In this document: piece after piece, positions 9,186-34,719 of the stretch | Layout: each line of letters starts with the position of its first letter | How positions within the stretch are numbered: position 1 is the stretch's first letter | Source of the DNA: Caldifarciminota bacterium | GTDB taxonomy: Bacteria > Hydrothermota > Tepidihabitantia > SM23-42 | Direction of reading: 5' to 3' | Assembly (NCBI GenBank): GCA_020353055.1 | Contig: CP070686.1 | Location: forward strand, 2,571,766 to 2,606,653 | DNA: 34,888 nucleotides | Made by a program: the position numbers and the translations under genes | The notes under the pieces: generated by a model | The model's database searches: none | Told to the model about the DNA's origin: nothing | Seen by the model: the letters and a program-made list of their open reading frames with translations, nothing else

Positions 9186-10328
9186 TTACCGAGTAAGTTC
9201 TCTCGCAATGACTATTTTTTGGACTTCGGATGTTCCCTCGTACAACTCAAGGATTTTAGCGTCACGGTACAGTCTTTCTACCGTGTAGTCCTTTGAATAG
9301 CCATAGCCACCATGAATTTGAACCGCTTTTCTTGCTACATCAACGGCAATGTCCGAAGCGTAGTATTTCGACATCGCTGATTCTTTGGAAAATCTCTGCA
9401 TACCTTTGTCTTTGCAGTAACCTGCGTAATGTACGAGAAGACGTGCCGCCTGAATTTGAGTCGCCATATCGGCAATCATTGACTGAATCATCTGGAAATT
9501 GCATACCGGCTGTCCAAAAGCCTTGCGCTCTTTTGAGTACTTCACTGCTTCATCCAGGGAGGCCTGAGCAATCCCGACCGCTTGAGCGCCTATGTCAATA
9601 CGTGAAACATCGAGCGTATTCATGCATATCTTGAAACCATCTCCCTCATTACCAAGGATATTTTCTTTCGGCACTTTGACATCCTCGAATATCAATTCGC
9701 AATTTGCAGTCGCTCTGATGCCCATAAGATCTTCATGATTACCAAGGCTGAATCCAGGCGTATCGCGTTCAACGATGAAAGCACTTATGCCCTTATGTTT
9801 CAATTCCCTATTTGTATAGGCAAACACAACAAAGGTACCGGCTTCACCGCCATTTGTGATGAACCGCTTTGTTCCGTTGAGGATATAGTGCCCACCATCC
9901 AGCTTCGCCGTCGATTCCATACCCGCAACATCAGAACCGGCGTTAGGCTCGGTGAGACCAAAAGCACCGATTTTCTGGCCGTTACACAACGACGGCAGGT
10001 ACTTCTTTTTCTGCTCTTCGCTCCCGAATTGTACAATTGGATAGGTCGTCAATGAGTTATTTACGGCAACGATGACACCAGTTGAAGCACAGGCGCGAGA
10101 AATCTCCTCGATTGCAATGGCCAGTGAAACGAAATCGAATCCCGAACCACCATACTGTTCAGGTACAATCACGCCGAGTAAACCCAACTGGGCCATTTTC
10201 TTTATGCTTGCCCAGGGGAATTCACCTGACTTGTCGATTTCTGGCGCAAGTGGCGCCAACTCGGTCTGTGCATACTTGCGCACCTCTTCCTGCAACATCT
10301 TCTGATCATTGGTCAAATCAAAATTCAT
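9186..10328 (-). CDS. Acyl-CoA dehydrogenase (short-chain/butyryl-type), catalytically complete
   Basis: Oxidises an acyl-CoA to the trans-2-enoyl-CoA with FAD and passes electrons to ETF. The 380-residue protein has all family marks: FGLTEPNAGSD at 123-133, KRFITNGG in the middle domain, KAFGQPV, QIHGGYGY at 337-344 and the catalytic base E364 in LYEGTSEVQKIVIAREL. The Glu lies in the position used by short- and medium-chain and butyryl-CoA dehydrogenases. Exact chain length or branching cannot be read from the motifs. The ATG follows GAAGGAGATATA, a strong ribosome-binding site. etfB lies 138 bp downstream, which supports direct coupling to this ETF. Confidence 0.94.
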   Translation of the reverse strand: MNFDLTNDQKMLQEEVRKYAQTELAPLAPEIDKSGEFPWASIKKMAQLGLLGVIVPEQYGGSGFDFVSLAIAIEEISRACASTGVIVAVNNSLTTYPIVQFGSEEQKKKYLPSLCNGQKIGAFGLTEPNAGSDVAGMESTAKLDGGHYILNGTKRFITNGGEAGTFVVFAYTNRELKHKGISAFIVERDTPGFSLGNHEDLMGIRATANCELIFEDVKVPKENILGNEGDGFKICMNTLDVSRIDIGAQAVGIAQASLDEAVKYSKERKAFGQPVCNFQMIQSMIADMATQIQAARLLVHYAGYCKDKGMQRFSKESAMSKYYASDIAVDVARKAVQIHGGYGYSKDYTVERLYRDAKILELYEGTSEVQKIVIARELTR

Positions 10329-10431: not shown

Positions 10432-10476
10432 GTTAATTACGTTAATCACGTTATTATCGTTATTCCCGCTAACGAC
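10432..10476 (+). repeat. Tandem 9-bp array (GYTAATNNC type), 5 units
   Basis: Five consecutive 9-bp units: GTTAATTAC, GTTAATCAC, GTTATTATC, GTTATTCCC, GCTAACGAC. First G and last C are invariant, and TTA/CTA follows the G. The array lies about 105 bp upstream of the acyl-CoA dehydrogenase start at 10328 and is antisense to that gene. The same unit type recurs at 29059, 32323 and 34596. The last two units closely match the last two of the 29059 array. Confidence 0.75.
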
Positions 10477-11906: not shown

Positions 11907-13015
11907 GATAAAATCTCCTCTGCAATCATGCTCCTGAGATCGACCGGCCCCCCGCACAGAAGCTGGAGGGTTTTTGCATCACGAAAGTACCTTTCCACCG
12001 GGTAATCTCGCGTGTAACCATACCCACCATGTATCTGTATTGCCTTCAATCCAGATAACACCGCACCCTCACAACTGGTGAGACAAGCGACGCGCGCCAG
12101 CATTGAGAAATCCTCATTCTTGTCGGATCTACTCGCTGCTTCATAAACGAGCAATCTGGATTTTTCGATACTTACTTTGATCTCGGAAAGCATATCCCGC
12201 ACCATTGGAAACTCACAAATTGCACGACCGAATTGCTTACGCTCTTTCGAATACTTCACGGAAGCATCCAACGCAGCTTCATTCAACCCCAGCGCAATTG
12301 CGGAAAGCCCTATGCGAGCGTAATCATGCAGGGAACGTAGCGCCCTCAGACCATCAGCCGCGATCATCAATAGATCTTCCTCTTTCAGATCTCTATGCTC
12401 GACTTCCAATCCAGTTACACCGGCGCCGCACATACCCATCATCCTCACAGGGTATGCACTAACCACGGATTCGTTTTTGTCTAACACGCATAGCACAACG
12501 GACTGCCCGTACTTGGCAGGAACGATGAAGAAATCTGCTACCGCACCATTCAAAGCGATATCATTCCTGCCTGAAAGAAACTTTCCACCACCAGCAGAAT
12601 CAACCAGAAATCCGTATCCGGTGATTTCGGTCTCTGGATAGGACACGTAGCACCCGATACTCCCGGCCGAGATTTTCTTCAGATAGTTTTCTTTTGTCTG
12701 CGTCGAGGCGAATTCTGAAATAGACCGGGCAACGAAGCAATTGTTGACTGCAACCATCAGTGCCAGAGATGCAGAGGATCTCGATAATTCTTCAAGTGCG
12801 ACACAAAGAGTCATCGTATCCAATCCTGAACCGCCATACTGCTCGGGCACAGTCAAGCCGAATAAACCCATCTGTGAAATTTTTGCCAGTATCTCCGGCG
12901 GGATACGGCAATTTTTTTCAATATCTGAGACGACCGGGTCGAGTTCGGCCGCGGCGAACTTCCTTATTTCACCTCTAATCAATTTCTGTTCACTGTTCAT
13001 TTCTATGATGCTCAT
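11903..13015 (-). CDS. Acyl-CoA dehydrogenase paralogue lacking the catalytic glutamate
   Basis: A 370-residue member of the acyl-CoA dehydrogenase family with the normal N-terminal helical domain (GLTVPEQYGGSGLD at 53-66), KQFGRAI, QIHGGYGY at 327-334 and DYPVERYFRDAK. The active-site segment that normally reads YEGTSE is LCGGPVD here, so the base is Cys354. The alternative base position used by isovaleryl-CoA dehydrogenases (Glu just before Arg in helix G) is Ala233. The middle domain is also degenerate: TEPxAGSD is replaced by SYPETEITG. It may be a non-catalytic subunit of a heteromeric dehydrogenase with the 10770-11906 product, as in mycobacterial FadE/ChsE pairs, or an enzyme with altered chemistry. 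It is the first gene behind the 13189-13216 promoter; ATG preceded by GAGGAG. Confidence 0.9.
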   Translation of the reverse strand: MSIIEMNSEQKLIRGEIRKFAAAELDPVVSDIEKNCRIPPEILAKISQMGLFGLTVPEQYGGSGLDTMTLCVALEELSRSSASLALMVAVNNCFVARSISEFASTQTKENYLKKISAGSIGCYVSYPETEITGYGFLVDSAGGGKFLSGRNDIALNGAVADFFIVPAKYGQSVVLCVLDKNESVVSAYPVRMMGMCGAGVTGLEVEHRDLKEEDLLMIAADGLRALRSLHDYARIGLSAIALGLNEAALDASVKYSKERKQFGRAICEFPMVRDMLSEIKVSIEKSRLLVYEAASRSDKNEDFSMLARVACLTSCEGAVLSGLKAIQIHGGYGYTRDYPVERYFRDAKTLQLLCGGPVDLRSMIAEEILS

Positions 13016-13097
13016 GTTCGGTTATCTCCTCTAAATGATTACTACTCACTACCAGAAATGTCTGAGATGTATTTTGATGACGTTTTTATTGATATTT

Positions 13098-26339: not shown

Positions 26340-27787
26340 AAAACCTCCTGAGGTTCCAGAGCAAGAATCTTGTCCTTAACAGACATGAACCCCAAGCTGA
26401 GAAACCCGAAACTGTAGAAAAATAAAAATGGTATAAGTATCAATTGCACGTTGACGATGACATATATGAGTGCCGCGAATACATATGTGCCGATCAGAAT
26501 TTCGATTATAGGAATTATTGACTTGGAATCCACTCTGTATCCTTTCGACTCGCCCCCGCATTTAGGCGTTCTCCGAAAAACATTCTTACGGTTGAGCCAG
26601 CCCTCAAAGATGGCGAGTGAATTTGAAACGGAAAGTCCCATGCTGTAGGATATTACGCCAGCGATAAAAGGTATCCGCCGCCGGTAATCCGGATACAGTT
26701 CGCGCTGAGAAAGGAAGTAGAGATACGGATATCCAAGCGCACCAATCGTAAAAAACGATGCAAAGATGAAATACCCATTCGCTACGATGTTCTCGACTTT
26801 GAAATAGACAATCACGGGCGAAAATAACGCCAATCCAAGCAGCGCTAGAAAATTGATATGACACGTTAGATGCACAAACGCTTCGTACTTGGCGATCTTC
26901 CCCATTCTTGCACGGAGCACTTGAGATAGCAGCTTGCGCGCGACCTGAATAGTACCTTTTGCCCAGCGGTTCTGCTGTATTTTGAAACTCTCGGCGCTTG
27001 CCGGCAGTTCGCCAAGAACCGAAAAATCATCACGGAACCTTATCTGCCAGCCGCGCAGCTGAACTCGATAAGACAAATCAAGATCCTCGGCAAGGGTGTC
27101 ACTATGCCATCCGCCTGCATCTGCGATCGCTTCTTTGCGCCATATCCCACATGTCCCGTTGAAGTTTATGAAGAACCCGGCGTGAAATCTGAGTCGTTGT
27201 TCCATGGCAAAATGGTTGTCCAAACCGATTGCCTGAGCACGGGTTAGTAGCGAATCATCGTGATTGAGGTGTGCCCATCGAGATTGAACACCGGCGACCA
27301 CTGGAGAATCAAATTCCGGTAACAACTCTTTGAGAAAATTCGGGGACGGTACAAAATCTGCATCGAATATTGCAATGAAATCACCTTTTGCAGTGGCCAG
27401 ACCATGCTGTAATGCACCAGCCTTGTATCCTTCACGTGAACCACGGCGGACATGATGAATGTTGAAATGCCTTTTTCGATACTCACTGACCAGACGTGCT
27501 GCAATATCACTCGTCTCATCGTTCGAATCGTCGAGCACTTGAATTTCGAGCTTGCTTTTTGGGTAATCGAGCTCAATCACACTCTTGAGAAGTCTATGTA
27601 CGACGAATTTCTCGTTATATATCGGCAGCTGTACCGTCACCCGTGGGTATTTGATCAATCTCTTTATCTTTCGCCTTCGACGGTGCCTGAACCGGTAATA
27701 AAAATAAATTAGTACGAATGAATGCATCGAATAAAAAAAGAGCACAACAAGTAAAATGGTGTATAGTGTAAGTATTGTACTAATCAA
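26318..27787 (-). CDS. Family 2 glycosyltransferase, membrane-bound processive type (cellulose-synthase-like)
   Basis: A 489-residue inner-membrane enzyme that should polymerise or transfer sugars from a nucleotide donor. It has an N-terminal hydrophobic helix (1-30) and a cytosolic catalytic domain with VQLPIYNE at 52-59, the first Asp pair D86/D87, DAD at 142-144, LAEDLDLS at 232-239 (TED-type base) and QQNRW at 271-275. At least four hydrophobic segments follow, at about 305-325, 335-355, 380-400 and 430-475. This resembles CESA-like beta-glycan or mannan synthases rather than lipid-linked GT2 enzymes. The TTG start overlaps the preceding stop (TTGA), with GGAG upstream. It could build an exopolysaccharide, or glycolipid groups for the neighbouring surface proteins. 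Confidence 0.9.
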
Positions 27788-28989
27788 CGGAATTCTCCGC
27801 CATAAGATTTCACTTCCAATCCACCCAACGGCTGTAGAATATAAGCCCGCAGGATTTCCATTTCGTTATATTGCATTTCGGGATACAGGTTTATTCTATC
27901 CGACTTTCTTAAGGTGTCAAGAGTGGCGGTTGCCACCAGAAGACTGTCCACCTCGATGGCAACCATGCGCGGCAGAGTGCTTTTTTGCCTCAATTTGAGA
28001 GAAATATATGGCGCAGAACTGCCGTCAAAGTCGATTTTCACCTCCCTGATGTCACGCTCGGTCAGCAAGATTTTGGTCAGGAAAAGTGGCTTGTACACAT
28101 CACCCATCAAATAACCAGTCTTGGTCGCCTCCTGCTGCTTCTCGGCAACGGCATAAACAACCATACCACCCGGTCTTAGCATTGCACCGGCATCTTCGAT
28201 TGCATAGTGAAGGGGAAGCCTGAGCAAGAAACCCTCGTCATTCTTCTCCAATCGATAGTCTACAGAAAGTATATCCAGCCGCTTCTCCAATGAACCATAG
28301 TCAACGCGTGATTCAGAATTTGGTTTTATCAAATATTCCCGCTTCTCCTTCACCGGCGATTTTATGCTCTTGTTGGAATTGTAGCCAAAGAGTTGTGCGG
28401 TCCAGTAGGTCGACGAATCAGGCAGACCTGCCCAGATGAAATCAGGCAGGAAGTTCTTCGGAGAAATAGTAACCAATCCGACCATTTCCTTACGCCGCTC
28501 AGGAGACAAAAAGGGAATGTTAGCTTTGAACCGATACGTATAGCCTTCAGCACTGCCTTCATATTCAAATTTATCCGTAATTAGGATCCGCTTTATTTGA
28601 GTGAATATGTCTGATTCTTCCCCCCGTGAAATTCGTTCCCAATCACTGCCCTTTCTCAAATACTCCACATCTCCCAAGCCAACATACTCGAAGTCCTGCT
28701 CACCCGCTTGACCGTACCACGTACCTGAAACGTTCTCCCCCTCACCAATAACACAGTAACCGGTCGCATCGACCCGCACGAATCTGAGCTTCGCTTCGTA
28801 CCGGTAACTGAACGATCTCTGACGCGCGAAATTCGCAACCCACTGATCAATGTCCTTCTCAGGGTTCGGTACGTACTTTGTGTACTGCACACAACCAAAC
28901 CACGTTCCTAGCAGCGAACCGAAACAACATACAAAAGCCGCTATCCACCTGTTCGAAAAGAATCTTCCTGAACGGAATCCCCAAAGCAT
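27784..28989 (-). CDS. Secreted or membrane-anchored protein with SecD-head-like C-terminal region
   Basis: A 401-residue envelope protein. The hydrophobic N-terminus (WIAAFVCCFGSLLGTWFGC) may be a lipoprotein signal with Cys33, though the lipobox is atypical. Residues about 40-240 resemble an outer-membrane lipid-binding (LolA-like) fold only loosely. From about 255 the pattern matches the SecD P1 head: EKRLDILSVDYRLEKNDEGF, then LRLPLHYAIEDAGAMLRPGG, then LTERDIREVKIDFDG, PYISLKLRQKS, MVAIEVDSLLV. The transmembrane part of SecD is absent. ATG 28989 is preferred to TTG 28995 because a -10 box lies 5 nt upstream of it. First gene of the envelope operon. Confidence 0.75.
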   Translation of the reverse strand: MLWGFRSGRFFSNRWIAAFVCCFGSLLGTWFGCVQYTKYVPNPEKDIDQWVANFARQRSFSYRYEAKLRFVRVDATGYCVIGEGENVSGTWYGQAGEQDFEYVGLGDVEYLRKGSDWERISRGEESDIFTQIKRILITDKFEYEGSAEGYTYRFKANIPFLSPERRKEMVGLVTISPKNFLPDFIWAGLPDSSTYWTAQLFGYNSNKSIKSPVKEKREYLIKPNSESRVDYGSLEKRLDILSVDYRLEKNDEGFLLRLPLHYAIEDAGAMLRPGGMVVYAVAEKQQEATKTGYLMGDVYKPLFLTKILLTERDIREVKIDFDGSSAPYISLKLRQKSTLPRMVAIEVDSLLVATATLDTLRKSDRINLYPEMQYNEMEILRAYILQPLGGLEVKSYGGEFR

Positions 28990-28994
28990 TAACA

Positions 28995-29022
28995 ATACTA
29001 TCGCTATTTACCCAAAAATCAA
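28995..29022 (-). promoter_or_regulatory. Leaderless-type promoter of the envelope operon
   Basis: Minus strand TTGATT (29022-29017), 16-bp spacer, TAGTAT (29000-28995), then exactly 5 nt (TGTTA) and ATG at 28989. Hexamers match consensus at four of six positions each, so the case rests on the spacing shared with 32532 and 34766. No ribosome-binding site precedes the ATG. Confidence 0.45.
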
Positions 29023-29058: not shown

Positions 29059-29139
29059 GTTAATTCCGTTAATCTCGGGGATACCGCTAATATCGTTTAT
29101 ACCGTCGATCCCTCTACTATCGCTATTCCCGCCAATGAC
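29059..29139 (+). repeat. Tandem 9-bp array (GYTAATNNC type), 9 units
   Basis: Nine uninterrupted 9-bp units fill 81 bp: GTTAATTCC, GTTAATCTC, GGGGATACC, GCTAATATC, GTTTATACC, GTCGATCCC, TCTACTATC, GCTATTCCC, GCCAATGAC. Eight begin with G and all end with C. It ends about 37 bp upstream of the -35 box of the minus-strand promoter at 28995-29022. The first two and last two units match the 10432 array closely, so the two are copies with different unit numbers. The remainder of this gap up to 29274 shows no gene. Confidence 0.8.
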
Positions 29140-30601: not shown

Positions 30602-32254
30602 CTAGCCTCCGCCTCTCCTGATATCTGCAAGCTTGATGAATTCTCCATCTTCTATCTGGTAGACACTCAGGATTTCGGTACCTCTCAGTGTTTCGCCGAT
30701 TAAACGTGGCAGATTTGAACGTTGATAATTGCTGATCGTTCTCAGCTGCAGCAACATGGTGTAGAACCGCGCCGTGAATTCATTAACCGGGAGCCTCGCG
30801 GATTCAAGCTGTCTGGAAACCGTCACATCGATGGCAGATGGTGCGACAAAAACCGAGCCTTCCACATATTTCTCACCAAGACGCGGGACTCTCTCGCTGT
30901 GGAATGCATCGGTACCGAGAAGGGTTATATCATCAAGACCATAATAGGCGACTTGGGGCGCTGCGTTAATGATCATATCTGTGTCCATTGCAAGAAATAG
31001 GGCGCCGGGTTCTTTTTCCTTAATCGCCTCTAACTCCCTCTTTATGGTTATTGAATCCGTCGGAAAACTGACCATGGCAACAACCTCGCGGTTGTTTCTC
31101 ACCACTTCCTGCGCAAACGACTGAGCAGTACTTCGATGATGGCTTTCTTCGGGATACAAAACCGCAAAGCGGTTCAACCCCATATCATAAGCGCTGTAAC
31201 GTGCCACCATCCGTGCTTGGTCCTCATGGGATTGACCTTGTGTAAAGACGAGAGGGATTGTGGCAAAACGTCCTTCCGTACTCATCGGCAGGATGAGCGG
31301 AATCGCTTTTCCATAGGCGAAACCGCACAATGTGAATGCCTCGAACGAGCTTACCGGAGCGATCAAAAAATCCACGCCCAGGTCTTCTACCAACCTTGCC
31401 GCCGCCAGTGTTGCATCTATCGGGTCAGATTTAGTATCAAGAACGTGAAGCGAGAAAGGAAGCATTTTGTTTCTTTCAAATGTTCTTACTACGCTGAGCA
31501 AATTCTGCCCGATGTTCGAAAACTTGCCGGTGAGCGGCAGCAGGATACCTGCTCTGCCAGTGGCTTCACCCAGGCTGATGAATCTTTTGTATTCCTCCGC
31601 TTCGTAGAGATACCTGGTTTCCGGAAAACGCCTCATCAGTAAGTTGAAGTCACGCTCTGCATCCTCTTTTCTACCCTTTTGTGCTTCGGCTTGGGCAAGG
31701 TGATAGAGGATATGTTCATCGATTTCCTCAGCCATATATATCCGGTGTAGCTTTTCGAGTTCGCCGATCGAAAGCTCGGGAAGCATCTCCAGTATACGTT
31801 CGAAAGCTTTCTGCCTGCCCGATGAATCTTCAGCCTGGACGTAGTACTTTGTCAGGTAATATGTAGCTTCGTAGTCCTCGTTAAGATGGAAATAAGATTC
31901 ACCAACCAAGGACATTGAATTAAGATAATATTTCGAATTCGGAAATTCCTTCAGGTATTTCTCTCCGAAGTTAACTGCATTCTTGAACCGGGCCAATTTA
32001 TATTGACAAAATGCGCCGAGGTACAGCGCTGGCTCATAGGATTCGGTTCCGGTGTATTTGGTTACGATCTCTTCGAAGGCAATAAGTGCGTTGCTGTAAT
32101 CCTTACGCTTGAAATAGTCATTGCCCCGTTCAAAAGCCACGGCAGCGCGTTCCGCTGCTCTTTCTGAATCAAGGTCAGTTGCGCCCTTTGGTCTAATGTA
32201 AGCGCAATTTAAGGTTAGAAACCCGATGAATGCAAGAAATATCAACTTTTTCAT
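30602..32254 (-). CDS. Lipoprotein with TPR repeats and a periplasmic-binding (LpoA/Leu-binding-type) domain
   Basis: A 550-residue exported protein. The signal MKKLIFLAFIGFLTLNC gives Cys17 as probable lipid attachment site (the lipobox TLNC is slightly atypical). Residues about 25-220 are TPR-like helical repeats (ERGNDYFKRKDYSNALIAFE, EPALYLGAFCQYKLARFKNA, then FPNSKYYLNSMSLVGESYFH). From about 220 a type I periplasmic-binding fold follows (GRAGILLPLTGKFSNIGQNL, FLIAPVSSFEAF, ITLLGTDAFHSERVP). This order matches penicillin-binding-protein activator LpoA, suggesting a role in wall synthesis, or a ligand sensor. GAGGA precedes the chosen ATG; the in-frame extension to 32302 would delay the signal peptide and include the promoter. 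Confidence 0.88.
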   Translation of the reverse strand: MKKLIFLAFIGFLTLNCAYIRPKGATDLDSERAAERAAVAFERGNDYFKRKDYSNALIAFEEIVTKYTGTESYEPALYLGAFCQYKLARFKNAVNFGEKYLKEFPNSKYYLNSMSLVGESYFHLNEDYEATYYLTKYYVQAEDSSGRQKAFERILEMLPELSIGELEKLHRIYMAEEIDEHILYHLAQAEAQKGRKEDAERDFNLLMRRFPETRYLYEAEEYKRFISLGEATGRAGILLPLTGKFSNIGQNLLSVVRTFERNKMLPFSLHVLDTKSDPIDATLAAARLVEDLGVDFLIAPVSSFEAFTLCGFAYGKAIPLILPMSTEGRFATIPLVFTQGQSHEDQARMVARYSAYDMGLNRFAVLYPEESHHRSTAQSFAQEVVRNNREVVAMVSFPTDSITIKRELEAIKEKEPGALFLAMDTDMIINAAPQVAYYGLDDITLLGTDAFHSERVPRLGEKYVEGSVFVAPSAIDVTVSRQLESARLPVNEFTARFYTMLLQLRTISNYQRSNLPRLIGETLRGTEILSVYQIEDGEFIKLADIRRGGG

Positions 32255-32261
32255 TTCCTCA

Positions 32262-32289
32262 ATATTAATCAAAAAAAATGCCGTGTCAA
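32262..32289 (-). promoter_or_regulatory. Promoter candidate of the TPR lipoprotein gene
   Basis: Minus strand perfect TTGACA (32289-32284), 16-bp spacer, TAATAT (32267-32262), then 7 nt to ATG 32254. Transcription would start at about the start codon, so the GAGGA before it might not be transcribed. The -10 match is modest. Confidence 0.4.
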
Positions 32290-32322
32290 CTGGCAAGCCC
32301 ACATACCAAACTTACAAAAGAC

Positions 32323-32385
32323 GTTGATATCGTTAATTTGGCTAATCCCGTTACTGTCATCGGCTTCGTTAATTTCGCATTTCGC
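32323..32385 (+). repeat. Tandem 9-bp array (GYTAATNNC type), about 7 units, degenerate beyond
   Basis: Units GTTGATATC, GTTAATTTG, GCTAATCCC, GTTACTGTC, ATCGGCTTC, GTTAATTTC, GCATTTCGC, with weaker continuation (GCTAGTTATCAC, GCAATCTAC, GGTAATCTA) to about 32430. It lies 33 bp upstream of the -35 box of the minus-strand lipoprotein gene, within the 311-bp divergent intergenic region 32255-32565. No gene is visible in that region. Confidence 0.65.
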
Positions 32386-32531
32386 CCGCTAGTTATCACT
32401 GCAATCTACTTATCAATCACGGTAATCTATTTACGGACCAATGTAGTTCTGCAATTTGCATTGTTGAGATAGCGGTATTAACGAACCGAATGAGAATGGC
32501 AGAAGTGGCAATCGTCCCGATGAAAGAGTTC

Positions 32532-32565: not shown

Positions 32566-32880
32566 ATGCAGGAAAAAAACAGTGAAAAAGAAAAAAATGA
32601 TGCGCAGCATGAAGAGCCAAAACTGCTCGACCAGCCAATAAAGGCAAAAGAGATCATCTACATGATGATTCTCTCCCTGGAAGGCAAAGCCTGGGCATAT
32701 CTTGATAAAGTAGCACATGCGGAAACTCAAAAACACCAAAAAGATACGGGTGAAGCAAAAGTTGCTATCGACGCAATTGAAGCACTATTCAGTGTCATCG
32801 AACCAGGCCTCGAAGCGGCCGAGAAAAACGATATTCAGGTACGCCTGACCAATCTTAGACTGAATTTTGCCAAAGAATAG
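32566..32880 (+). CDS. DUF1844 family protein
   Basis: A 104-residue cytosolic protein. A charged, probably disordered N-terminus (QEKNSEKEKNDAQHEE) precedes a helical domain with MMILSLEGKAWAYLDKVAHA and AKVAIDAIEALFSVIEPGLE, ending LTNLRLNFAKE, which follows the DUF1844 pattern (first helix with sLe..A...LGk, second with A...Id.L..l..kt, then L..LR..f). Function is unknown. The gene appears to be leaderless, and its end overlaps the start of the DUF2723 gene by 14 bp. Confidence 0.82.
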   Translation: MQEKNSEKEKNDAQHEEPKLLDQPIKAKEIIYMMILSLEGKAWAYLDKVAHAETQKHQKDTGEAKVAIDAIEALFSVIEPGLEAAEKNDIQVRLTNLRLNFAKE

Positions 32881-34588
32881 TATTCCCATCACGCTGCGCC
32901 AGCACCTCACCACAATCTGTCCTCTGTTAATAATAGCCGTCCTATATCTATTCTCGCTCTGCCCGAATGTCTACCTGATCGATTCTGGTGAATTGGCTAC
33001 CGTCTCATTCACGCTGGGCATCGCCCATCCCACTGGTTATCCGTTGTACACATTGATTGCCTATTTTTTCGCACACTTACCTGGACAACCGATATGGAAT
33101 CTCAACATACTTTCCGCGCTGTTCTCAATTGCAGCAGCAGCCTTCCTCTTTTTTATCGCGCGCCGGATAACAGAAAGTAAGATTACGCCGGTTCTCACTA
33201 TTTCACTCTTCGCCTTTTCACCTATAATCTGGAACACATCCGTCACAAACGAGGTACATTCGCTGACCGGGCTTTTTGCGATATTACTGCTCTTCTTGAT
33301 TTATCGATGTCATAGCGACCGTATATTTTACTTGATCATGTACTTGACCGGGCTGAGCCTGGCGAACCACATGATGATATTTTCTCTTCTTCTTCCGCTA
33401 TTAGTTTACATTCTTCTTGTTTATCGTCCCAATATAAGAAAAATAGCCAGCGGTTTCTTATTTCTGATTCTCGGGCTCTCAATATATTACTATCTTATAG
33501 CGCGTACGCACGGTGGCGCTCAACTGGCATGGGGGAATACCATAAACCTGCAGCGTCTATTATGGCACGTAAGTGGTAAACAGTACCGGGTGTGGATGTT
33601 TACGTTATCACCGCCTGAGGTTCTTAAAAACCTGGTCACCGGTGTCCAAATTCTCGCACGCAACCTTCTGTATGTACTCGCCATACCAACGATTGTAGGC
33701 TTTTATCGCTTGTACCGAGAAAACCGCCGAATGTTCTGGTTACTACTGGTCATTCTCATGGTGAATGTCCTGTATACCATCAATTATTCGATACCGGATA
33801 TCGAATCGTACTACATACCAAGCTTTATTGTGCTCGTGATCAGCTTCACCTATGGCATAAAACAACTCAGCAGGTTCTTAAAGAATGCGATCATCCTGGC
33901 TATATCTTTCATAATCCCCATAATAAACTACAATTCCTGCACGCTGAGGAGCAATGACTTCGGCATGGATTTCGCACAGGCTCATACTTTCATGCTCCCT
34001 GATTCAAGTCTGTTGATCACAACCTACTGGGACATCTACGCACCCCTGATGTATTCCAGAAAAATCAAAAAGGTGAGAGAAGACCTGGTGATCATCGACA
34101 AAGAATTATTACGACGAACTTGGTATCTTGCATACATTGAAAACGAATATCCCGATTTCTACGAAAGGGTTAAGCCTTTTGTTAACGCATATCTCATTGA
34201 ATTGAACAAATTCGAGTACGACCTACCCTATAGCCCCCAGACCATACAGTTGCGCTATATTGACTTGCTCGAGAGTTTTGTCGATGCCAAAATTGAGGAT
34301 GGAGTTTTCTTCTGCTCGCCATGGCCTGACCGGGACTTCGAAGCGGTCAAACCGGGCTACCCAAGAATTCCATTCGGACTAGTCCACAGCATCGCCAGGG
34401 AGATGACCGCAATGCCTTTCGATTTCAGTGAATTCAACCTTGCACCGCCGCCGGTTGTAAACGACACCCGCCTTCAATACAATATGACGGTAGTGCGCAA
34501 TATGTTGCGTCAGAATATTAGATACCTGCAGGCAATCGGCCTTCACGAGCAAGCAGAAAAAGCACACCAAATCCTGAAATCGTTCTAA
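32867..34588 (+). CDS. DUF2723 family polytopic membrane protein (O-mannosyltransferase-like)
   Basis: A 573-residue integral membrane protein. The N-terminal signature SLCPNVYLIDSGELATVSFT, then LGIAHPTGYPLYTLIAYFFA and WNLNILSALFSIAAA, is characteristic of DUF2723/TMEM260-type proteins, which are GT-C-like and in eukaryotes transfer mannose to proteins. About ten hydrophobic segments span residues 15-355, with the conserved acidic motif (D39 of DSGEL) in the first external loop. The last ~200 residues are a soluble domain (LITTYWDIYAPLMYSRKIKK). Translation begins at TTG within the DUF1844 gene; no canonical ribosome-binding site is seen, so it probably depends on coupling. It may glycosylate exported proteins, but no substrate is indicated. 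Confidence 0.87.
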   Translation: MPKNSIPITLRQHLTTICPLLIIAVLYLFSLCPNVYLIDSGELATVSFTLGIAHPTGYPLYTLIAYFFAHLPGQPIWNLNILSALFSIAAAAFLFFIARRITESKITPVLTISLFAFSPIIWNTSVTNEVHSLTGLFAILLLFLIYRCHSDRIFYLIMYLTGLSLANHMMIFSLLLPLLVYILLVYRPNIRKIASGFLFLILGLSIYYYLIARTHGGAQLAWGNTINLQRLLWHVSGKQYRVWMFTLSPPEVLKNLVTGVQILARNLLYVLAIPTIVGFYRLYRENRRMFWLLLVILMVNVLYTINYSIPDIESYYIPSFIVLVISFTYGIKQLSRFLKNAIILAISFIIPIINYNSCTLRSNDFGMDFAQAHTFMLPDSSLLITTYWDIYAPLMYSRKIKKVREDLVIIDKELLRRTWYLAYIENEYPDFYERVKPFVNAYLIELNKFEYDLPYSPQTIQLRYIDLLESFVDAKIEDGVFFCSPWPDRDFEAVKPGYPRIPFGLVHSIAREMTAMPFDFSEFNLAPPPVVNDTRLQYNMTVVRNMLRQNIRYLQAIGLHEQAEKAHQILKSF

Positions 34589-34595
34589 ACGCAGC

Positions 34596-34613
34596 GTTAA
34601 TCCCGCTAATCCA
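34596..34613 (+). repeat. Short 9-bp repeat pair (GYTAATNNC type)
   Basis: GTTAATCCC and GCTAATCCA directly follow the DUF2723 gene, with two poor units after them (GCAGGGAAC, GTGATACTT). Same unit type as at 10432, 29059 and 32323. On its own it would not be called. Confidence 0.45.
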
Positions 34614-34633: not shown

Positions 34634-34719
34634 CCGCCCCGCTTCGCAAGGCGAGGCCGTGGATTCTCGACTCAGTAAACGAATACGATACTAACGGGAG
34701 TAAGGACATTGACGTCCTT
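34634..34719 (+). terminator. Two hairpins after the DUF2723 gene (weak terminator candidates)
   Basis: CCCCGCTT and AAGGCGAGG around TTCGC-type bases (about 34635-34654) and AAGGAC/GTCCTT with a 6-nt loop (34702-34719) are inverted repeats downstream of the stop codon. Neither is followed by a clean U-run (TTGTAAATTT after the second). The rest of the 210-bp gap is AT-rich near 34720-34750 and holds no gene. Confidence 0.3.

Follow-up and report, generated by a model that had tools for sequence, protein, structure and literature searches.

Short tandemly repeated repetitive (STRR) sequences are contiguous direct repeats that are dispersed through intergenic DNA and whose function is not known; heptamers of this kind were reportedly described by Mazel et al. 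in 1990 from heterocystous cyanobacteria. Contiguous boxes can also be protein-binding sites, as in the unspaced rows of 7–8-bp boxes recognised by RHH proteins, among them MetJ, which binds met boxes cooperatively. Similarly, the contiguous heptads of pSM19035 are bound cooperatively by omega/ParB, and at least four repeats are required for full ParA activation (PMC9499535). In Beggiatoaceae, TAACTGA repeats form scores of intergenic sets of 2–6 contiguous units, which are oriented relative to genes and distributed patchily among taxa; the repeat is an exact 7-mer, variants of it are rarely repeated, and most sets lie just upstream of start codons (PMC4679880). Finally, rut sites are unstructured, rich in C and poor in G (PMC9160355).

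Here, we analysed a window of 34,888 nucleotides from the 2.69-Mb genome of a candidate division WOR-3 relative (G000), in which arrays of a degenerate 9-bp unit, GYTANTHYC, lie between the genes. Like STRR sequences, the arrays are contiguous short direct repeats, dispersed and intergenic, but their period is nine rather than seven (period-7 families coexist with them) and, in contrast to STRR sequences as we know them, they are degenerate at set positions, almost never have identical neighbouring units and are polar with respect to genes. With the TAACTGA sets they share contiguity, intergenic position, orientation relative to genes and patchiness across taxa, whereas the unit is a degenerate 9-mer and the arrays face gene ends as well as gene starts and stand outside the promoter. 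As rows of contiguous boxes of fixed spacing they are comparable to met boxes and omega heptads; no lineage-specific RHH protein was found for them, however, and their chromosomal sites number about a hundred rather than a few. They would resemble rut sites in lying after stop codons and in putative antisense transcripts, in one orientation and unstructured, but rut sites have no fixed 9-mer and the excess of C over G in the arrays is slight. Functionally, the arrays would resemble met-box and omega-heptad arrays most closely, and genomically STRR and TAACTGA repeats. In the literature searched, in which subscription journals were thinly covered, we did not find a description of arrays in WOR-3 genomes, of polar 9-bp arrays or of such a polar arrangement at gene boundaries.

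All four intergenic sites of the original prediction carry phased 9-bp units, as established by checking the letters with a phased scorer; the 9-bp phase of the predicted unit, GYTAATNNC, was correct, but GYTANTHYC is the better consensus. The array at 10432–10476 (plus strand, five units) has its 5′ end toward the start of a minus-strand acyl-CoA dehydrogenase-like ORF (9186–10328), and the orthologous gap contains a 9-bp array in the congener G003 and none in six other congeners. At 29059–29139 (plus strand), nine units, about three of them degraded, run with the 5′ end toward the start of the minus-strand ORF 27784–28995, and arrays are present in the orthologous gaps of G003 and of a further congener, G007. 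The ends of these two arrays are, as had been claimed, literally alike (GTTATTCCCGCTAACGAC versus GCTATTCCCGCCAATGAC). The third array had been placed at 32323–32385, but its good units reach only 32376 (32323–32376, plus strand; four good units to 32358, then one bad and one good). Its 5′ end faces the promoter of the minus-strand ORF 30602–32302, a -35-like TTGACA leaving the array at 32284–32289 (minus strand); GTTGAC is conserved in G003 and G007, and the G003 array follows the same ACAAAAGAC boundary. A remnant of an inward-facing array (GGTATTAAC plus GAACC) is found at 32474–32487 on the minus strand, and its ortholog in G003 has five units. The fourth site (34596–34613, plus strand), whose first base lies 7 nt past the stop codon of ORF 32867–34588, does contain its two units but is a remnant, the orthologous array of G003 having four. 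Three weak units of a degraded inward-facing array are located at 34687–34713 (minus strand), the side of the gap on which G003 has five. All four window arrays fit the polarity rule described below, three being nearest to the start of a minus-strand ORF and one following a stop codon.

That such arrays should exceed shuffled DNA and recur in the genome had been anticipated, and both hold. A phased scan covered the window and 14 genome stretches, and at the lowest cut-off 83 arrays were obtained, compared with none in locally shuffled copies. Across the whole of G000, 237 three-unit matches with at most two mismatches were found (61 forward, 176 reverse) versus one for the backwards-read control pattern (0 forward, 1 reverse); the 237 are overlapping matches, and separate arrays are estimated at roughly a hundred. 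Stretch-based statistics cover about 640 kb of G000, 430 kb of G003 and 480 kb of G007, many of the stretches having been picked for holding arrays. A 20-kb stretch of the genome, G000:C1:680001-700000 (L232), is all N.

The phase is strict: neighbouring CGYTANT cores in G000 are spaced by 9 bp 169 times, by 18 bp 27 times and by 27 bp three times, all other spacings up to 27 bp summing to seven, and in the three genomes pooled the same spacings occur 555, 111 and 14 times, the rest being rare. Among 1159 internal units the composition is G (98%), Y, T (97%), A (90%), N, T (89%), H, Y, C (96%), so that positions 1, 3, 4, 6 and 9 are nearly fixed and positions 2, 5, 7 and 8 are loose. Arrays comprise 3–19 units, mostly 3–8. 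Since the quality of the fixed positions is 0.91–0.96 along the whole array and about 0.41 one unit beyond either end, the ends are sharp and no internal gradient exists; polar growth with ageing, as in CRISPR arrays, was rejected for lack of this gradient, and a CRISPR array itself because spacers are missing and the units are degenerate. Many arrays follow a leader-like unit in which position 6 is G (46%, versus 8% inside arrays), for instance GTTTGGTTC, GTTTAGATC or GTTGAGTTC, and a trailing GYT is often left after the array. REP-like cores (GAGATTG, GCAATGAC or the complement) lie within 40 nt on the 3′ side of 13% of arrays, compared with 1.3% of random windows, and a REP-like palindrome, CTGAGATTGCTTCG...CGCAATGACGG, is seen 3′ of arrays in G000, G003 and G007 (e.g. 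L074:2860-2890) ten times as often as in chance windows. The arrays share dispersal and intergenic position with REP/BIME elements, but their unit is not a hairpin-forming palindrome.

Adjacent units are almost never identical (two of 962 pairs, with 17.3 expected and a minimum of seven in 500 shuffles), which argues against recent slippage and led us to reject a microsatellite. Within-array shuffling of 92 arrays (no identical neighbours found, 1.3 expected) is not significant alone, and the best statement is therefore that an array rarely reuses a unit. Different arrays do have a few blocks of 3–4 units in common (eight shared triples versus 0.2 expected). One array is duplicated, L075:16187-16285 and L075:18301-18381 lying 2 kb apart with the leader and most units in common; one unit is lost between them and the tails differ.

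The arrays are intergenic: 58 of 66 have most of their length outside ORFs of 90 aa or more, though gaps make up 15% of the DNA, and tandem, divergent and convergent gaps hold them about equally (24/105, 11/43 and 7/38, respectively). They are also polar, a property absent from the original prediction and found here on inspection rather than predicted. Read as 5′-GYTANTHYC, the 5′ end is nearer a gene in 134 of 180 gap arrays (P = 3.6e-11; orthologous arrays among the 180 are not fully independent), and this holds in each of the three genomes (G000 46/68, G003 54/66, G007 34/46). Where an array has a gene within 60 nt on just one of its sides, the 5′ end faces that gene in 61 of 70 cases, and two arrays in one gap face inward 11 times and outward never. 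It had been proposed to map the arrays to start codons, and 83 indeed face a gene start, but 97 face a gene end, where many begin 4–10 nt past the stop codon. A TTGACA/TATAAT-like site leaves the array in 33 of the 83 gene-start cases, usually at a distance of 10–40 nt, compared with 7 of 104 on the 3′ side. A fixed orientation relative to the gene strand in tandem gaps was not found (18 same, 15 opposite); this strand-only test hid the polarity, which is visible only when distance is used. A replichore bias was also dropped, the strand switch at 1.2 Mb being an artefact among the first 100 matches listed. At L001 (G000:C1:751737-751900), a stop codon and a four-helix-bundle-like (23S rRNA IVP) ORF flank an array, the ORF running into masked Ns; an association with four-helix-bundle proteins (PF05635), prompted by this neighbour, was discarded because their copy number does not track the arrays.

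Within the genus, three genomes carry the family (G000 237, G003 433 and G007 141 three-unit matches), whereas the five other congeners (G001, G002, G004–G006) have 0–2 matches, and no 9-bp arrays were found in 450 kb of G001, G002, G004 and G005. The same kind of array occurs, in another genome collection, in candidate division WOR-3 bin1351 (CP070802.1), probably identical to G007. Small sets are also present in other genera, and G025, from another family of the order, has 14 matches, one of which (L062) begins beside a -35-like box with the first unit GTTAGGTTC. Elsewhere, matches are mostly exact coding repeats; a phage origin was rejected, as 26 viral contigs hold exact or near-exact repeats only, nearly all in long open frames. 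Partly non-coding GYTANTNNC arrays are found in gut Bacteroidales (L115, L130, L155, L161, L169, L181). Several 9-bp arrays per genome, some non-coding and others inside ORFs, were noted in Bacteroidales at L115, L130, L136, L155, L161, L165, L169, L177, L180 and L181. These arrays share with those of WOR-3 the fixed letters, the 9-bp phase and a partly intergenic position, but differ in that neighbours are often identical or alternating (31 of 235 adjacent pairs identical), that eight cases show no polarity and that other bases occupy positions 7–8. As they came from searching this very pattern, we claim no common origin.

Degenerate arrays of period 7 and 8 occupy the same gaps as the 9-bp arrays. 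Families adjoining 9-bp arrays have period 7 (GATACTN, GCGTNNA, TTCGNAT) or period 8 (CTTCTNAN), and CCTAAANN and CAAAYNC are further families of short period. Direct junctions are seen at L071:13051-13241, L072:11180-11480 and L076:7432-7545, which gives such gaps the appearance of a mosaic built from several short-period families. The gap beside window position 10328, which has a 9-bp array in G003, contains inward-facing CCTAAATN arrays from both genes in G005 and CAAATNN-like stretches in G004, G002 and G007. This 8-bp family is G005's own and, like the 9-bp arrays, stands inward-facing beside genes at L275:11531-11630 and 12955-13033. Other families are polar too: the 5′ end is nearer the gene in six of seven arrays of the G005 8-bp family, and the 3′ end in 22 of 25 GCGTNNA arrays. 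This makes the 9-bp family look like one of a class of replaceable elements.

Orthologous gaps, defined as those with both flanks orthologous, agree in the presence of arrays: between G000 and G003, 14 gaps have arrays in both, 4 + 4 are discordant and 28 have neither (Fisher P 6e-6); the corresponding counts are 8, 3 + 4 and 34 for G000/G007 (P 1e-4) and 14, 4 + 2 and 25 for G003/G007 (P 2e-6). The agreement also holds in gaps of at least 200 bp, and in single-array gaps the orientation agrees in 20 of 23. Fourfold-degenerate identity among the three carriers is 0.47–0.49, which gives a per-lineage neutral p-distance of about 0.33, and at that divergence only 3–11% (about 5%) of simulated neutral arrays remain detectable. 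Retention of arrays is about 78%, which requires either purifying selection on the fixed positions or arrays being continually re-created at the same sites. Between species, the free positions and the number of units turn over; in the gap ending at L072:6315, three, eight and four units follow the same flank (TTYTCGTTCATAAG) in three species. The earlier idea that copies expanded or shrank is borne out by such numbers, but expansion by slippage is not, identical neighbours being depleted. Of 45 orthologous array pairs, 11 align better than 95% of random pairs; their per-site difference is 0.23 (0.228) at loose and 0.165 at fixed sites, a comparison biased by the inclusion of flanking units and by selecting for loose matches. 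In one pair, L075:12461 and G007:2173910, fixed sites changed as often as loose ones. Retention therefore indicates selection on the arrays, which the site rates do not prove.

Our leading hypothesis, held tentatively, is that the arrays are lineage-specific, polar gene-boundary rows of contiguous protein-binding boxes kept by selection, and it draws support from the phase, the sharp ends and uniform quality of the arrays, the polarity, the promoter-like sites at the 5′ ends, the retention and the scarcity of identical neighbours. The row tends to begin where the gene's own DNA ends, either a few bases past the stop codon or 10–40 bp upstream of the -35 box, and runs outward into the gap. The fixed positions would be kept by a protein bound cooperatively to adjacent boxes (compare MetJ and omega/ParB), the pseudo-dyad of the unit (G..A-N-T..C) suiting one dimer per box; the letters at loose positions and the number of boxes would be of little consequence, and any box turned identical to a neighbour would be lost by slippage deletion. 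The bound stretch, we infer, may mark transcription-unit edges or insulate them. A protein-binding array was one of the functions originally proposed and fits best, but the binding protein was not found: RHH_1 (PF01402) detects one NikR-sized protein in carriers and in the non-carriers G001, G004 and G005, and an RHH binder was set aside because this match is not differential, although a divergent RHH protein may escape the search. Further points against binding boxes are the mildness of the deficit at fixed sites, with the L075:12461/G007 pair equal at both, the existence of close sister species without the 9-bp family, and the period-7 and period-8 families, which imply that no single spacing is essential. 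Less probable, though a serious contender, is that these are neutral or selfish STRR-type repeats, added or copied in gaps, outward from a DNA end or an insertion point, and blooming per lineage without needing a function in the cell, so that polarity would reflect the direction of synthesis and abutment on stop codons and promoters the limit of tolerated disruption. The juxtaposition of families of period 7, 8 and 9 and their exchange between species in the same gaps, the 11 inward pairs against no outward ones, the 3–4-unit blocks shared between loci and the one duplicated array all speak for such repeats. They leave the retention at near-saturated neutral divergence unexplained, however, and the arrays are sharp, uniform and without decay, have no linked transposase and are depleted of identical neighbours, unlike slippage repeats such as those of Bacteroidales. 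The mobile repeat of the original prediction finds weak support: a few blocks are copied between loci, but copy number does not follow that of Y1 transposases, and a Y1/RAYT link was rejected (3, 5 and 3 Y1 matches in carriers versus 3–12 in non-carriers).

An action in RNA is an unlikely reading, in which outward transcripts, whether read-through past the stop codon or divergent antisense from the promoter, would read GYUANUHYC and be terminated or processed, Rho being one candidate agent; its binding sites accept varied sequences, which would account for the different families in sister species. The polarity means that outward transcripts always read one strand, a YC step recurs every 9 nt (Y8C9 in about nine of ten units), the RNA of arrays has less structure than its shuffled counterpart and is richer in C (0.22) than in G (0.155), and Rho is present in all eight genomes. 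On the other hand, Rho does not explain the fixed G1, T3, A4 and T6 and is the same in carriers and non-carriers; the 90 nt after a stop codon contain 10.1 YC steps when an array is present and 9.4 when none is, C exceeds G just slightly in 90-nt windows after gene ends (18.7 versus 17.1), sense and antisense strands fold equally weakly, and sites resembling intrinsic terminators show no significant depletion in the presence of arrays. The structured RNA that had also been proposed is not supported, since the window has no Rfam match at the gathering score and shuffled copies form more stable folds than the arrays do. We consider it slightly more doubtful again that the genus marks gene edges with species-specific, replaceable polar box families, read in the outward direction as a boundary code, that are laid by a repeat-adding or copying process and then selected. 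Relics or parts of protein-coding repeats, or chance, are highly improbable: matches in other phyla are mostly, and viral ones nearly all, exact or near-exact repeats in long open frames, whereas the arrays described here are mostly outside ORFs, consist of units that differ from each other, often start at most 10 nt past a stop codon and are absent from shuffled copies.

The short intergenic repeats reported in cyanobacteria and giant sulfur bacteria have come without a handle on function, whereas the arrays of WOR-3 offer testable ones in their polarity at gene ends, their retained positions at near-saturated divergence and the sister species that lack the family. As boundary elements, the arrays would amount to gene demarcation on a genome-wide scale in an uncultured phylum; should they have another nature, their polarity would be the signature of a repeat-laying mechanism not previously known, and either outcome would be new.
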